In this document: positions 27,575 to 33,959 of the stretch, one piece after another
Position numbering within the stretch: position 1 is the stretch's first letter
Layout: each line of letters opens with the position of its first letter
Assembly: GCA_902608115.1 (NCBI GenBank)
Contig: CACLMT010000004.1
Coordinates: forward strand, 1-64,000
Source of the DNA: an uncultured SAR86 cluster bacterium
GTDB lineage: Bacteria; Pseudomonadota; Gammaproteobacteria; Magnimaribacterales; D2472
Direction of reading: 5' to 3'
DNA length: 64,000 bases
Notes under the pieces: generated by a model
The model's database searches: none
Seen by the model: the letters and a program-made list of their open reading frames with translations, nothing else
Told to the model about the DNA's origin: nothing
Translations under genes and position numbers: made by a program

Positions 27575-28984
27575 TTATAGTTTCTTAATCATTGATGCTT
27601 TTGGCCAAGCACAATAATCAGCCGCATAAAAACCCGCTGGTCTTAGATTACCACTCCTACCAATACCACCAAAAGGAAAAGCTCCTGATGCTCCAGTCGT
27701 AGTAGAATTAAAATTTATTACTCCCGCATTTATACTTTGAACAAAAACTTTAAAGAGCGTTTGATCATCTGATATTAAGCTAGCAGCAAGTCCATATTTA
27801 GTATTATTAGCGCTATCAATAGCTTGTTCAAAAGAATCTACGAAAGATACTTGCAACATGGGACCAAAATTTTCTTCATCATGTAATTTTTCCATCTTAG
27901 TTATATTAAACAAGCTAGGAGTAACGAGATTAAAATGCCCCTTAACTTTTTTAGATTTAAGAATTGTTTCTGCGCCCATTCCAACCAATTTGTCTTGAAA
28001 GTCTAAAAACCCTTTAGTAGCTCCTTCAGAAATTAACGGTCCATAATATAAATCAGAATTTTTTCTAAATGACAAAGATTGAATTTTTTTCTTTAACTTA
28101 TTAAGAATTTTTTTACCATTTGTTGTATTGGGGAGAATTAATCGCCGAGCACAGGTGCATCGTTGACCCGAAGAGATAAATGCAGATTCAAATATAAGAT
28201 CTACAGCTGCATTAATCTTTCTAGTTGACCAAACAACTATAGGATTATTACCGCCCAACTCTAAAGCTAGAATTTTCTCAGGAAAATTAGCCATAATCTT
28301 ATTTAACTGTTTACCGACTTTATAGCTTCCTGTAAACAAGATGCCTTGATTTAATCGGTGCTTGCAAAGAGCTTGCACTATGTCTTTACCTCCATGAACT
28401 AAATTAATTACTCCTTCAGGAATTCCTGCTTCCACCCATAAAAGCATCATATACTCTGCAACCATTGGAGTTGATTCGCTTGGTTTAAATACAATTGTAT
28501 TACCAGCTAGCAATGCTGGAGTAATATGACCATTTGGTAAATGCAATGGAAAATTAAAGGGGCCTATTACCGATAAAACTCCATGTGATGCATGTTGTAA
28601 GCTTGCTTTTATAACGCCGGTATTATTTGCTTCTGATCCTGTACGTTTTTTATAAGCATGGATAGAATTATTTAACTTTGCTAAAGCAGCCTGCACTTCT
28701 GAGGCAGCATCAAAAAGGACTTTCCCAGTCTCGATAGATATCAATTGAGTAACAATATCTTTATTCTTTTTAAGCAAGCTATAAAATTTCTTAATAATTT
28801 TTAATCGATCATGAAAAGATTTTTTTGACCATTCAGGATGAGCCTGACTTGCTGAAACAACCGCTGCTTTAAGTTGAATATTATTAGCAAAATTACCTTC
28901 CCAGATTATTTCACCATCTGATGGGTTTAGAGATTTAAAGGCCTTTCCTTTTCCAGGAACCCAATGATTTCTATAAAAAAGCAT
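27575..28984 (-). CDS. astD: Succinylglutamate-semialdehyde dehydrogenase
   Basis: ALDH motifs LALELGGNNPIVV and SSGQRCTCARRL; between astA and astB. Confidence 0.94.
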   Translation of the reverse strand: MLFYRNHWVPGKGKAFKSLNPSDGEIIWEGNFANNIQLKAAVVSASQAHPEWSKKSFHDRLKIIKKFYSLLKKNKDIVTQLISIETGKVLFDAASEVQAALAKLNNSIHAYKKRTGSEANNTGVIKASLQHASHGVLSVIGPFNFPLHLPNGHITPALLAGNTIVFKPSESTPMVAEYMMLLWVEAGIPEGVINLVHGGKDIVQALCKHRLNQGILFTGSYKVGKQLNKIMANFPEKILALELGGNNPIVVWSTRKINAAVDLIFESAFISSGQRCTCARRLILPNTTNGKKILNKLKKKIQSLSFRKNSDLYYGPLISEGATKGFLDFQDKLVGMGAETILKSKKVKGHFNLVTPSLFNITKMEKLHDEENFGPMLQVSFVDSFEQAIDSANNTKYGLAASLISDDQTLFKVFVQSINAGVINFNSTTTGASGAFPFGGIGRSGNLRPAGFYAADYCAWPKASMIKKL

Positions 28985-29988
28985 TAATTTACCTGCGCCA
29001 AAGAATCAGGCTTTAATCCTAATGCTTTTGCTGTTTTGGCTGAAATAAATATAGTCCTCTTGGCTTTATCAAAAGCATAATTTTCTTTAACCACTGCAAA
29101 TGATTGAATAGAGGGATTAGCAATAAAACCAAAACGATCAAAATTAATGTTTCGTTTGATCTCAATGGGCAATAATTTTGCAGATTTGACTATAGGGATA
29201 GAATTAATTTTTGTTTCTAGGCAAGGACCTCCATCTAAAACATCAATTAAACCATTGGGACGAAAATTCTGTTTTCTTAATAACGAATAAGCTGGCATCG
29301 AATTGGGGTGAGGCTTACCAATAACTCTTTGAACTTTTTTGGGCATAAGTTTAATAATAAAAGGAAAGCTTGGTACTGATTCAAAAATGAAGTGATTATC
29401 AATGTAACTAATTTGGTCCGCCTTAAAAAAATCTAGATTAAAAAAGGTGCTGCTAAATGAATCCCAGAAATAAGATTCATTTTTTGTGTTTTTAAATCCT
29501 CTAATCTCAACAAAAGCCTTTGAATCAAAACGCTCTTGGTGAGTAGACATAAAGACAAATCTAGCAAATGAAAGTAAAGTTCCTCTCCCTTTACCCCTAA
29601 AGGCTGGCTTTAAAAATAAAGTACCTAATTCTGAGTATGGCTCCTTACATAAATGTAAAGTTAAAACATCTAAATCTTTAGTAAATTTAAGAGATTTTGA
29701 TTTAACTTTAAAAATTGATTTCTTAAAAAACACTGAAGGTTTTTTAAGTGAAATAGAAGTATAAATTGCAGATACACCAACAATCCTTCCATTGTCTTCT
29801 AAAACAAATAAATAGCTATCTTGGTTAGGCTTCCTAGATTTTTTAGATTGTGAAGACACAGACCAAGAAATTCTTTCTTTAATTTGGCTTCGAGATTTAG
29901 GCATTGTCGTCATCCCTTTACCTGCGTGACGAAGTAGATGCTCTATACTTTTAAAATCCGATTTTTTAACCAGCCTGACAACTTTCAT
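28984..29988 (-). CDS. astA: Arginine N-succinyltransferase
   Basis: MKVVRLVKKSDFKSIEHLLRHAGKGMTTMP; GTLFLKPAFRGKGRGTLLSFARFVFM. Confidence 0.94.
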   Translation of the reverse strand: MKVVRLVKKSDFKSIEHLLRHAGKGMTTMPKSRSQIKERISWSVSSQSKKSRKPNQDSYLFVLEDNGRIVGVSAIYTSISLKKPSVFFKKSIFKVKSKSLKFTKDLDVLTLHLCKEPYSELGTLFLKPAFRGKGRGTLLSFARFVFMSTHQERFDSKAFVEIRGFKNTKNESYFWDSFSSTFFNLDFFKADQISYIDNHFIFESVPSFPFIIKLMPKKVQRVIGKPHPNSMPAYSLLRKQNFRPNGLIDVLDGGPCLETKINSIPIVKSAKLLPIEIKRNINFDRFGFIANPSIQSFAVVKENYAFDKAKRTIFISAKTAKALGLKPDSLAQVN

Positions 29989-30044: not shown

Positions 30045-30914
30045 TTATTCTAATTCAACGACAATTTCATTATAAAATTTTTCCATTGCATCGATCTTTT
30101 CTTTTAATGGAGCCTCATTCATTACTCCATACAACATCCATGGATATGTTGTCATAGTTGTTACACCAAGATTTTTCATCTTAATAAAACCTTCTAAACT
30201 AAATGCATCCCAACAACTAAAACAGATATACTCAAAATTATTATTTTTAGTAAATTCCTGTCTTTTAATATTCACTCTTTCAATTAACTCTTTTAATTCA
30301 TCATAACTATGCATGTCAGAAATCCAACCATCATGTTTAGCTGCTCTGTTCAAAGCAGGTTCTGAAAATCCGCCCACATAAATAGGAATATCTTTAACGG
30401 GCGCAGGAAGCATCTCTAATTTATCAAATCTAAAGAATTCGCCTTGAAAATCAACCATCTTCCCAGTCCATAATAATTTCAAAACCTCTATCATCTCATC
30501 TGCTCTTACGCCTCTGCGTTTAAAATTTTGGCCTCCTGCTTCAAATTCTTCAGGCATCCAACCCATACCAATACCTAAATCAAACCTCCCATTAGAAAGA
30601 GCATCAAGCGTTGCAATCTCCTTTGCCACCCTCATAGGATTTCTAGCTGGTAAAACATAAACACTAGTATAAAAGCGAATGTTCTTAGTAACCCCAGCCA
30701 AAAAAGATAAGGCATTAATTGGATCAGGCCAATCAGTACCAGACTCCCATCTAACATTGCCATCTTCAGTATAGGGGTATCGAACAGAAAATCTCTCCGG
30801 ATGAATTAAATGATCTGATACAGCAAGAAAATTATATCCAATTTCATCTGCTGCTATTGCCAAAGATTCAATTTCATCTACTGGCAACATTGAGAGAGGT
30901 ATTGCAATTTTCAT
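30045..30914 (-). CDS. LLM-class flavin/F420-dependent oxidoreductase
   Basis: Luciferase-like TIM barrel: NFLAVSDHLIHP, ATLDALSNGRFDLGIGMGWMPEEF, IPIYVGGFSEPALNRAA. Confidence 0.9.
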   Translation of the reverse strand: MKIAIPLSMLPVDEIESLAIAADEIGYNFLAVSDHLIHPERFSVRYPYTEDGNVRWESGTDWPDPINALSFLAGVTKNIRFYTSVYVLPARNPMRVAKEIATLDALSNGRFDLGIGMGWMPEEFEAGGQNFKRRGVRADEMIEVLKLLWTGKMVDFQGEFFRFDKLEMLPAPVKDIPIYVGGFSEPALNRAAKHDGWISDMHSYDELKELIERVNIKRQEFTKNNNFEYICFSCWDAFSLEGFIKMKNLGVTTMTTYPWMLYGVMNEAPLKEKIDAMEKFYNEIVVELE

Positions 30915-32101
30915 ATACCTATAGCCCTACTTACAAACCAAAAAGTACCCATTGAAAAAACTACAACCCCCATAAGGTTATGTATTTTATAAAAAACTCT
31001 ATAATTAAAATTATTCTTAAAAATACCAAGAATACCTAGTAATAATAGGGCCACTGCCAATTGGCCTATTTCAACTCCGATATTAAAACTTAAAATAATT
31101 TGCCACAACTTATCCTGAGGAAGACCAACTTCTGCAATTGAAGAAGCAAATCCTAAGCCATGAATCAAACCAAAAAAAACAGTAATAAACAAGGGTAACC
31201 ATTTTGTTGGGTAATGGTTAGTTAAGCTTAAATATATAGTTAAAAATAATGCTAAGCCTAAAATTAATACTGGTTCAATAGTTCCAAAGACCGCCAAAGG
31301 AGATAGAGCTAAAATTGAAAAGAATAAATTTTTAAAAAGTTTATCAAATTCAAATACATGCTTAAAAAATTTTTCTATTGCCAGCAACAAAATTGAAAAA
31401 CCTATTAAGATTTCTACCATTTCTGTATGCACTCTCAAAACATTCATAGCACCTAATCCCAAAGTCAAACTATGTCCAATAGTAAAGCCTGTAATAGCAA
31501 TAATTAAGTAAGTACCTTTAAATAATAATAATAATCCCAGTAGAAAGGTTAAATGATCCCAACCGCTCAGAATATGCTCAATTCCAGAGCGTAAATATCC
31601 CCAGTAAGAATTTGACTCAGCGATTTGACCTTCAGGAGTATTAACAAACCAAACATCACGATTATTTGAAAACATAAATTCAGGAATTGTTTCACCGTTG
31701 ACTGATCCTCTTGCAATATGAGTATGTGTAATTCCAAAATCTTGAAACAAAGGAATCATGATTCTCTCTGGCATATAAGAGCATTCAAAGGACCAAAAAA
31801 ACTTCATCATACCCAAAGACAAATTCTCATTGATATCTACTGGATTTGTAAGCTTGCATGACTGACCAAGGTCTATAGAGTTATTTAAATAACTTACGAA
31901 ATCTTGAAGAGAGATAAAACGAGCTGTCGGATTTAATCTATTTAAAATATCCTGCTTTATAGTGCCAACCACCTGCACTGACATTCCATTGTCTTCTGAT
32001 AAAAAAGTAAACCTTGAATACGATTCACTGCGATTATGAGCTTCTAAAGAGAAAAAACAACTAGCCAATACGATGCAAGAAAAAAAAAATTTAAAGCTCA
32101 T
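30911..32101 (-). CDS. HupE/UreJ-like membrane protein with N-terminal periplasmic domain
   Basis: SGIEHILSGWDHLTFLLGLLLLF, FTIGHSLTLGL, FFGLIHGLGFAS, FNIGVEIGQLAV. Confidence 0.88.
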   Translation of the reverse strand: MSFKFFFSCIVLASCFFSLEAHNRSESYSRFTFLSEDNGMSVQVVGTIKQDILNRLNPTARFISLQDFVSYLNNSIDLGQSCKLTNPVDINENLSLGMMKFFWSFECSYMPERIMIPLFQDFGITHTHIARGSVNGETIPEFMFSNNRDVWFVNTPEGQIAESNSYWGYLRSGIEHILSGWDHLTFLLGLLLLFKGTYLIIAITGFTIGHSLTLGLGAMNVLRVHTEMVEILIGFSILLLAIEKFFKHVFEFDKLFKNLFFSILALSPLAVFGTIEPVLILGLALFLTIYLSLTNHYPTKWLPLFITVFFGLIHGLGFASSIAEVGLPQDKLWQIILSFNIGVEIGQLAVALLLLGILGIFKNNFNYRVFYKIHNLMGVVVFSMGTFWFVSRAIGI

Positions 32102-33395
32102 CTGCCTTAATCACGTCATACCAATTTCTAAGATCCATTAGATATTCATCTAGCATCTCCTCTCCCTTACTGCGGATAAACTCTGATTCAATTTCTTCAT
32201 AAAGCTCATCAAAAGTTGGGGTAGTTTGAATTAATTTCCTAACAACAATTAAAAGATGTATTTGATCATCTAGGTTAATTAAGTCGCTCACTTCACCCTC
32301 CTCTAACTTTAAAGCTTCTTGTGTGAGAAATGGGCCTATATATTCTCTTATCTTGATTGCTGGCAACAAAGTATTTGGTAATTTGATAACCTCAGGTTCT
32401 GCAAGTTCTTTTGCGCCTAAAGGATTGTCTGCAAGTAAAAAATCTCTTGCTAATTGTGCTTTGTCCTTGTTGGTACTAGAAAAACTTAATTTGAGAAGAT
32501 GGAGTTTGGGGCTAGGAGTGAAAAAACCTTTATTTTTATTAAAGAATTCCTCTAGATCCTGTTTTGAAAACCTTAAATCATTAGTTTCAGCAATGATTGA
32601 GCTAATCATTTTTTGAATGATAATACTTCTAATCTCAGAGTTATGTTCCAACATCCCTAAGTCAATTGCTCGTTGAATAAGCAATTCCTCATCTATCATT
32701 CTTTCAAGGATATTTTGAGGATCTGAATCGACAAGCCCCAGCTTTCGTGACTCTGCAATAGAGCTAAGGTATGACTCATATTTTGCTTTAGAGATTGCTC
32801 TTTCATCTATTTTAGCTATCCAATTTATCTGATCAAGATCAACTTCTTTAATAAAACTAAAGCCAACAATTCCAAGAGCTAAAGAAAAACCCAAAATCAA
32901 CAATGGATGAAAGGTAATAAATCTTTTTAAAGATTTAATTCCCTTTGCCTTTGGAGGGGTAAAAGTCATTTTTATATGATCAATGTCATCTTCAAGATAA
33001 ATCTCTCCTTGAGAAACAAACCCCAAATCTTCATAGAAACTTAATAAACGATATTGAGCTGAGAGAGTAATCTCTTGTTCAGGATATTTTCGAGCACTGA
33101 AATCCATAGCCTCTAAAGTAATAAGTTTTCCTATTCCCTGTCCTCTAATTTTTTCTATCGTAATCACCCTACCAATTGACGGACCTTGATACTGAATGCC
33201 CGGTTTAATTAAACGAAGGTATGCAACCAACTCATTATTTTGATAACCCAGCATATGATCACCATGCTCATCATTAAAATCTGCATCGATAAAGGGACAA
33301 TTTTGCTCTACAACAAAAACTTGTTGCCGCAAATGCATTATGGAATATAGTTCCTGCTTAGATAAAGCAGAAAATGATCTCCATTTTATTTTCAT
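32091..33395 (-). CDS. Fusion: ElaA-type GNAT acetyltransferase + TM anchor + PpiC/SurA-like peptidyl-prolyl isomerase
   Basis: Residues ~1-145 ElaA-like (LRQQVFVVEQNCPFIDADFNDEHGDHMLGYQNNELVAYLRLI...GRVITIEKIRGQGIGKLI); ~160-182 TM; ~210-434 SurA_N/rotamase-like (MIDEELLIQRAIDLGM...FFTPSPKLHLLKLSFSS...LPNTLLPAIKIREYIGPFLTQEALKLEEGEVSDLI). One uninterrupted frame. Confidence 0.85.
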   Translation of the reverse strand: MKIKWRSFSALSKQELYSIMHLRQQVFVVEQNCPFIDADFNDEHGDHMLGYQNNELVAYLRLIKPGIQYQGPSIGRVITIEKIRGQGIGKLITLEAMDFSARKYPEQEITLSAQYRLLSFYEDLGFVSQGEIYLEDDIDHIKMTFTPPKAKGIKSLKRFITFHPLLILGFSLALGIVGFSFIKEVDLDQINWIAKIDERAISKAKYESYLSSIAESRKLGLVDSDPQNILERMIDEELLIQRAIDLGMLEHNSEIRSIIIQKMISSIIAETNDLRFSKQDLEEFFNKNKGFFTPSPKLHLLKLSFSSTNKDKAQLARDFLLADNPLGAKELAEPEVIKLPNTLLPAIKIREYIGPFLTQEALKLEEGEVSDLINLDDQIHLLIVVRKLIQTTPTFDELYEEIESEFIRSKGEEMLDEYLMDLRNWYDVIKADEL

Positions 33396-33479: not shown

Positions 33480-33959
33480 ATGGGCGAACTTTATGACATT
33501 AATGTTAAAGACAACAACTTAAATAATGTTGAAATGAGTGAATATAAGGGCAAAATATTACTTATAGTCAATGTTGCTAGCAAATGTGGTTTCACACCTC
33601 AATATAAAGATTTAGAAAGCCTCTATAAAAAATATAAAGATCAAGGCCTTGAAGTGCTTGGGTTTCCTTGCAACCAGTTTGGGGCACAAGAACCAGGCAG
33701 CAATGAAGAAATCCAATCTTTTTGTCACTTAAATTACAATGTTACTTTTAAGCTATTTGATAAAATTGATGTGAATGGTCCAAAAACTAGCCCTCTTTTT
33801 AAACACCTTAAGAATCAATCCCCTGGCATTTTAGGTACAGAAGGAATTAAATGGAATTTCACCAAGTTCCTAGTTAACAAGGATGGAGAAGTAGTAAAAA
33901 GATTCTCTCCTAAAGATACTGAAGCAGTAATTGAAGCCCAATTAGTCAAATCACTCTAA
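33480..33959 (+). CDS. Glutathione peroxidase (Cys type)
   Basis: NVASKCGFTPQYKDLESLY; LGFPCNQFGAQEPG; WNFTKFLV. Confidence 0.95.
   Translation: MGELYDINVKDNNLNNVEMSEYKGKILLIVNVASKCGFTPQYKDLESLYKKYKDQGLEVLGFPCNQFGAQEPGSNEEIQSFCHLNYNVTFKLFDKIDVNGPKTSPLFKHLKNQSPGILGTEGIKWNFTKFLVNKDGEVVKRFSPKDTEAVIEAQLVKSL

Follow-up and report, generated by a model that had tools for sequence, protein, structure and literature searches.

The ElaA-type GNAT acetyltransferases with solved structures, ElaA from Escherichia coli (5z6n) and PA0115 from Pseudomonas aeruginosa (1xeb), are stand-alone proteins of about 150 amino acids; in an E. coli KAT screen, ElaA overexpression was found to inhibit growth, with no substrate given (PMC6199490). 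Proteins of the SurA/PrsA/PEB4 group (3rfw, 5ez1, 6vj4) are membrane-anchored or exported and combine a SurA_N-like helical part with a parvulin-like domain. The third relevant system is the copper/nickel-binding “anglerase” Ang-1-HupE/UreJ-2 (9GCE), which possesses a signal peptide, an N-terminal histidine, a ZrgA-like beta-sandwich and a HupE_UreJ_2 membrane domain; Ang-1 binds Cu2+ (Kd 74 nM) and Ni2+ (220 nM), copper via the N-terminal histidine, and its nearest structure is ZrgA, 8F1B (PMC12537917). The words isomerase, rotamase and PpiC are absent from the main text of that paper, so no partner of that kind is named there.

Likenesses to all three systems are found in two overlapping genes of the window (the whole stretch of 64,000 nucleotides analysed here). 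The respective genome, from SAR86, abundant bacteria of the ocean, comprises 1.25 Mb in 37 contigs and is 78% complete.

Architecture and conservation of the ElaA-chaperone fusion

An uninterrupted frame of 434 codons without internal stops (33395..32091, minus strand) overlaps the hupE gene by 11 nt (32091-32101). The parts of this frame and the neighbouring genes are as follows.

32961..33395, minus strand: ElaA-type GNAT domain, residues 1-145 (Pfam, structure-sequence matches, Foldseek), with the acetyl-CoA loop R84-G-Q-G87-I-G89, the catalytic-type Tyr121 (FYEDLGF) and the C-terminal end EDDIDHIKM
32910..32960, minus strand: basic linker, the fusion junction, residues 146-162, FTPPKAKGIKSLKRFIT (charge, dN/dS)
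32847..32909, minus strand: single TM anchor, residues 163-183 (hydropathy; AlphaFold helix 164-180; alignment)
32529..32846, minus strand: SurA_N-like helical part of the predicted periplasmic chaperone, residues 184-289 (SurA_N_3, PEB4/HP0175 profile, Foldseek)
32226..32528, minus strand: degenerate parvulin-like domain, residues 290-390 (Rotamase_2; motif K-[ILV]-R-[ED]-Y-[IVL]-G)
32091..32225, minus strand: C-terminal helix, residues 391-434, and stop codon
30911..32101, minus strand: hupE, HupE_UreJ_2 permease with a predicted periplasmic Ang-1/ZrgA-like domain
30045..30914, minus strand: LLM-class oxidoreductase (TIGR03619), the next gene, overlapping hupE by 4 nt
28984..29988, minus strand: astA, arginine N-succinyltransferase, the start of the downstream ast genes
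33480..33959, plus strand: glutathione peroxidase, the divergent upstream neighbour, part of a conserved leuA-rimI-gpx-elaA block

The sequence-only reading had recognized this gene as a fusion of ElaA, a TM segment and a SurA/rotamase-like region; the fusion is genuine, and the frame, coordinates, length and 11-nt overlap were given exactly. A phmmer search matches residues 3-144 to E. coli ElaA (5z6n, E=1.3e-29) and the same half to PA0115 (1xeb, E=7.6e-27), Pfam Acetyltransf_10 scores above its cut-off, and Foldseek aligns the modelled GNAT half with the two solved chains at E of about 1e-12 and TM-scores of 0.83-0.89, normalised to those chains. Because the cut-off of the NCBIfam equivalog PRK10314 is missed (116.6 vs 171 bits), the domain is called ElaA-like and not a proven equivalog. 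The whole fold, the acetyl-CoA loop, the catalytic-type tyrosine and the C-terminal ED-I-HI-M pattern are shared with ElaA and PA0115, and R84, G87, G89 and Y121 are invariant in the fused proteins, both in the alignment and sequence by sequence, so that the RxxGxG loop and the catalytic tyrosine are kept; unlike the solved proteins, however, the SAR86 protein runs on into a TM helix and a predicted periplasmic domain.

Residues 164-182 form the only segment of the fusion protein above a KD hydropathy of 1.6, flanked by a net charge of +5 over the 15 residues ahead of it and -2 over those behind it. Given this change from basic to acidic, the GNAT half is predicted to be cytoplasmic and the chaperone half periplasmic, the same topology that had been proposed earlier. 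An AlphaFold2 model built with 12 fused homologues (mean pLDDT 72) bears out the architecture, with a GNAT domain, the TM helix 164-180 and a SurA/parvulin-like fold; confidence is good in the GNAT and parvulin-like domains and low across the linker and in some of the helical domain. With this model, Foldseek retrieves 1xeb and 5z6n for the GNAT half, and PEB4 and HP0175 for the chaperone half. In-frame candidates for a separate chaperone start inside the fusion are M143 and a few TTG codons, with no obvious ribosome-binding site on inspection by eye.

The fusion is real and conserved, and its recurrence lies well outside what chance could produce. In a family survey of 108 genomes, it is full-length in 33 SAR86 genomes including the present one, in four genera, at the same locus and with 37-68% identity. 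In its own genus (g1), 23 of the 27 genomes encode the full-length protein, two more carry truncated copies and two incomplete genomes have no match; the full-length form is further present in 7/7 genomes of g6, 2/2 of g10 and 1/10 of g3 (G008). A second, free ElaA was not found in the fused genera of this survey, and most of the other genera of the family keep elaA alone as a free-standing gene for about 150-180 amino acids. At all loci read, fused and free elaA occupy the same syntenic slot beside leuA, rimI and the divergent gpx. In close pairs, dN/dS values of 0.01-0.15 show purifying selection on both halves, and in most pairs dN/dS of the linker exceeds that of either half. Outside the order, the fusion was detected neither in a class sample of 370 genomes nor in a phylum sample of 299 genomes. 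Searches of the literature on GNAT-parvulin fusions returned nothing relevant; the architecture, although made of known parts, is apparently undescribed as a fusion in the literature searched.

It is barely conceivable that the fusion is an artefact of assembly or annotation, in which two real genes were joined through a missed stop or frameshift: no sign of one was found, and 33 full-length copies from many separately assembled genomes show one architecture, even though true split relatives do exist in other families. The sequence-only reading would have doubted the fusion if close relatives all encoded two genes with the chaperone starting at the TM anchor; such relatives are indeed what is found outside the family, but no split version was detected among the genomes of the same genus and its two sister genera. 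A match of residues 2-254 in G045, interrupted by ten stops, was considered as a decayed remnant of the chaperone gene (ppi) after elaA and dropped as a chance extension, because no more than about 50 nt separate the elaA stop from the start of the next gene.

The chaperone-like half and its HupE partner

In a Pfam search with the single sequence, Rotamase_2 (E=2e-5) and SurA_N_3 (E=6.5e-5) fall just under the cut-offs; in the genome search, Rotamase_2 scores 29.2 against a cut-off of 27, and a family profile of the chaperone half matches PEB4, HP0175 and PrsA. As in SurA, PrsA and PEB4, an N-terminal TM/signal anchor is followed by a SurA_N-like part and a parvulin-like domain. The SAR86 protein differs from these chaperones in the degenerate parvulin site, the HupE_UreJ_2 neighbour, the N-terminal GNAT and the KxREYxG motif (K-[ILV]-R-[ED]-Y-[IVL]-G), which is common to the SAR86 chaperone family, G008 excepted.

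The site of catalytic parvulin PPIases such as PpiC consists of His, Cys/Asp, Met, Phe and His, and, as read from profile alignments, it is not preserved: in the profile alignment to PEB4, other residues stand in place of the first histidine, the GGxLG stretch and Met/Phe. The C-terminal histidine is kept as His380 in the fused proteins of g1, g6 and g10; free-standing relatives have Lys or Arg at this position in family f2 and Ser in f3. Because the active-site positions that can be read are lost except for this histidine, a role as chaperone or assembly factor for HupE is more likely for this half than one as isomerase. The earlier label “rotamase” fits insofar as a Rotamase_2-like region is present, and overstates what the readable active-site positions allow. 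Activity as a PPIase, which the name PpiC suggests, thus seems highly improbable despite membership in the Rotamase_2 family and the retention of His380.

The link between the chaperone and HupE is well supported by the gene neighbourhood. Outside SAR86, all 22 inspected matches to the PPI profile directly adjoin a HupE_UreJ_2 gene, in accord with the earlier remark that PpiC-like/HupE pairs occur in other bacteria, and this association makes service to the HupE permease the most likely role of the chaperone half. These observations bring to light a chaperone-like family that goes together with HupE_UreJ_2 metal permeases.

The HupE partner itself looks like the Ang-1-HupE type of copper/nickel-binding anglerase, judging from sequence features and a fold comparison: it combines a HupE_UreJ_2 domain, a predicted signal peptide followed by a histidine as the first mature residue, and a beta-sandwich periplasmic domain, all as in the described protein (9GCE). 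The predicted mature N-terminus is His22, with cleavage, judged by eye, between LEA and HNRSESYS, and a histidine follows the predicted signal peptide in 33 of the 34 HupE orthologues in SAR86, the exception being G008. The fold of the periplasmic domain resembles that of the zinc protein ZrgA (8F1B). A sequence search of PDB with HupE gave no meaningful match, so that only the fold comparison is informative; 9GCE was absent among the structure matches listed. Neither urease alpha nor NiFe hydrogenase was found in this 78%-complete genome; these nickel enzymes are therefore not evident clients, and the Hup/Ure name is not to be taken literally. Literature searches on HupE of SAR86 retrieved nothing relevant.

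The HupE of G008 (L099 7303-8133) is a shorter protein of 276 amino acids that lacks the whole periplasmic metal-binding domain. The chaperone half of the G008 fusion is highly divergent.

Origin of the fusion from separate operon genes

The comparison set consists of 20 loci from two other SAR86 families. The ppi-hupE pair is present in 20/20 of these and elaA lies directly upstream in 18/20, once truncated; elaA and ppi are separate genes, mostly with overlaps of 4 or 8 nt (range 4-8), and the TM anchor is where the free chaperone starts. Accordingly, the TM anchor of the fusion protein aligns with the N-terminus of the free-standing chaperones from other families. At four loci (G144 and three of g16), elaA and ppi share a reading frame and are separated by a single stop codon, to which G144 adds one further codon. 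Two loci of family f2 (L133, L139) contain ppi-hupE without elaA, and a third has a truncated ElaA. Conversely, elaA occurs without adjacent ppi-hupE in seven genera.

The sequence-only reading took the GNAT for the new component of a PPIase/HupE pair; the position of elaA directly upstream of ppi-hupE in two other families contradicts this. Because the genes are split in the same order there, the fusion arose inside an old operon and the GNAT was not brought from elsewhere. The split operon, the state one stop away from fusion, the fused gene and reduced states can be seen side by side in one order, which makes this a clear case of an operon-born protein fusion.

In a tree of LeuA, Gpx and RimI, g1, g6 and g10 group as one clade with SH-aLRT support of 99, and G008 is placed as the sister of g3; the PPI halves of g1, g6 and g10 likewise form one clade (97). 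Resolution in the ElaA tree is too weak to tell one fusion from two: the fusion may have happened once, in the family ancestor, with ppi-hupE lost afterwards from other genera, or it may have happened twice. Horizontal gain of the fusion by G008 was considered and set aside; its ElaA branches with members of the family that lie outside the g1/g10 group, and long branches are seen for its PPI and HupE. Vertical descent with divergence is preferred for G008, although not proven.

In several split operons of family f2 (L120-L123, L134), ElaA lacks the RxxGxG glycine or is truncated, with ppi-hupE intact; ElaA may be decaying there.

Possible roles of a membrane-tethered ElaA

The explanation that appears reasonably probable as a whole starts from an ancestral SAR86 arrangement of three separate but coupled genes, elaA-ppi-hupE, in which the elaA stop would have been lost in frame with ppi in the ancestor of part of one SAR86 family. 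The product would be a single protein of the inner membrane: on the cytoplasmic side the ElaA acetyltransferase, then one TM helix, and in the periplasm a SurA/PrsA-like chaperone, probably a non-isomerase, which would fold, assemble or stand beside the Ang-1-like periplasmic domain of HupE. The GNAT half appears to be the ordinary ElaA of the cell, tethered to the membrane; given that it is the sole ElaA found in the fused genomes, it probably keeps the usual ElaA activity and would simply work at the membrane. Biochemical studies of any of these proteins in SAR86 were searched for, and none was found.

Membrane-bound ElaA is found elsewhere as well. In genus g296, from unrelated Gammaproteobacteria (L231-L242), ElaA proteins of 194-208 amino acids possess their own C-terminal TM helix; 24 of the 26 genomes match to the end of the TM in one piece, and the helix is present in all 12 loci read. 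As in the SAR86 fusion, the tether directly follows the GNAT domain, whereas the chaperone domain is missing and the proteins form a separate group in the ElaA tree. These proteins hint that the membrane placement of ElaA may matter, and the SAR86 locus gives an initial indication that this little-understood acetyltransferase may work at the membrane. One genome from another class encodes ppi-hupE-GNAT(191 aa)-elaA on one strand (L208 5179-8144), with an ElaA that groups outside SAR86.

The association of ElaA with ppi-hupE across SAR86, its independent anchoring in g296 and this cluster outside the class all count against an operon fusion that brought no direct coupling, and the first two leave room for a functional link. 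The targets of the tethered GNAT might be HupE, some other partner in the inner membrane or a cytosolic metallochaperone, whose acetylation would bring metal uptake in line with acetyl-CoA or metal status; selection would then have favoured the fusion for that. Although the same three observations (elaA next to ppi-hupE at 18/20 loci, the separate cluster, and the C-terminal TM in nearly all sampled g296 genomes) speak for such a link, as does an acetyl-CoA motif intact in all fused proteins and degraded in several split operons, we consider it unlikely: elaA persists without adjacent ppi-hupE in the seven genera mentioned above, ppi-hupE lacks elaA in L133, L139 and nearly all pairs outside SAR86, and the anchored ElaA of g296 may lack a HupE pair nearby. 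Because each persists without the other, elaA and ppi-hupE are separable, which leaves the previously suggested coupling to export or metal-protein maturation unsupported. Acetylation directly coupled to metal uptake is likewise possible but unsupported, and doubtful. More specifically, it is improbable that the protein is a TM module through which a cytoplasmic acetyltransferase is linked to how a periplasmic metal-capture permease is assembled or works; if true, acetyl-CoA-dependent modification inside would be tuned to metal-receptor folding outside by a module built from fused operon neighbours, to which TM-anchored ElaA elsewhere would be an independent approach. It is also rather unlikely that the fusion is a near-neutral accident, in which a stop loss became fixed by drift in a streamlined genome without gain to either half, and the chaperone-HupE link reflects an ancient operon only. 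Compatible with drift are a genome size of about 1.2-1.5 Mb, overlaps between genes, split operons one stop away from fusion and a linker less constrained than either half, but the fusion has been kept in three genera, among proteins diverged to 46-49% identity, without re-splitting, and the linkage of the chaperone with HupE holds in 22/22 cases outside SAR86.

Two further observations concern the gene neighbourhood. In g3 and g5, a protein of ~590 amino acids with a lipoprotein-like N-terminus and no Pfam match is encoded between elaA (or hupE) and astA (e.g., L046 6150-7922). The present genome also encodes a second, distant PPI-HupE pair without a GNAT on contig C11 (L108 5200-6953), and relatives of this pair are matched in most SAR86 genomes of the family.
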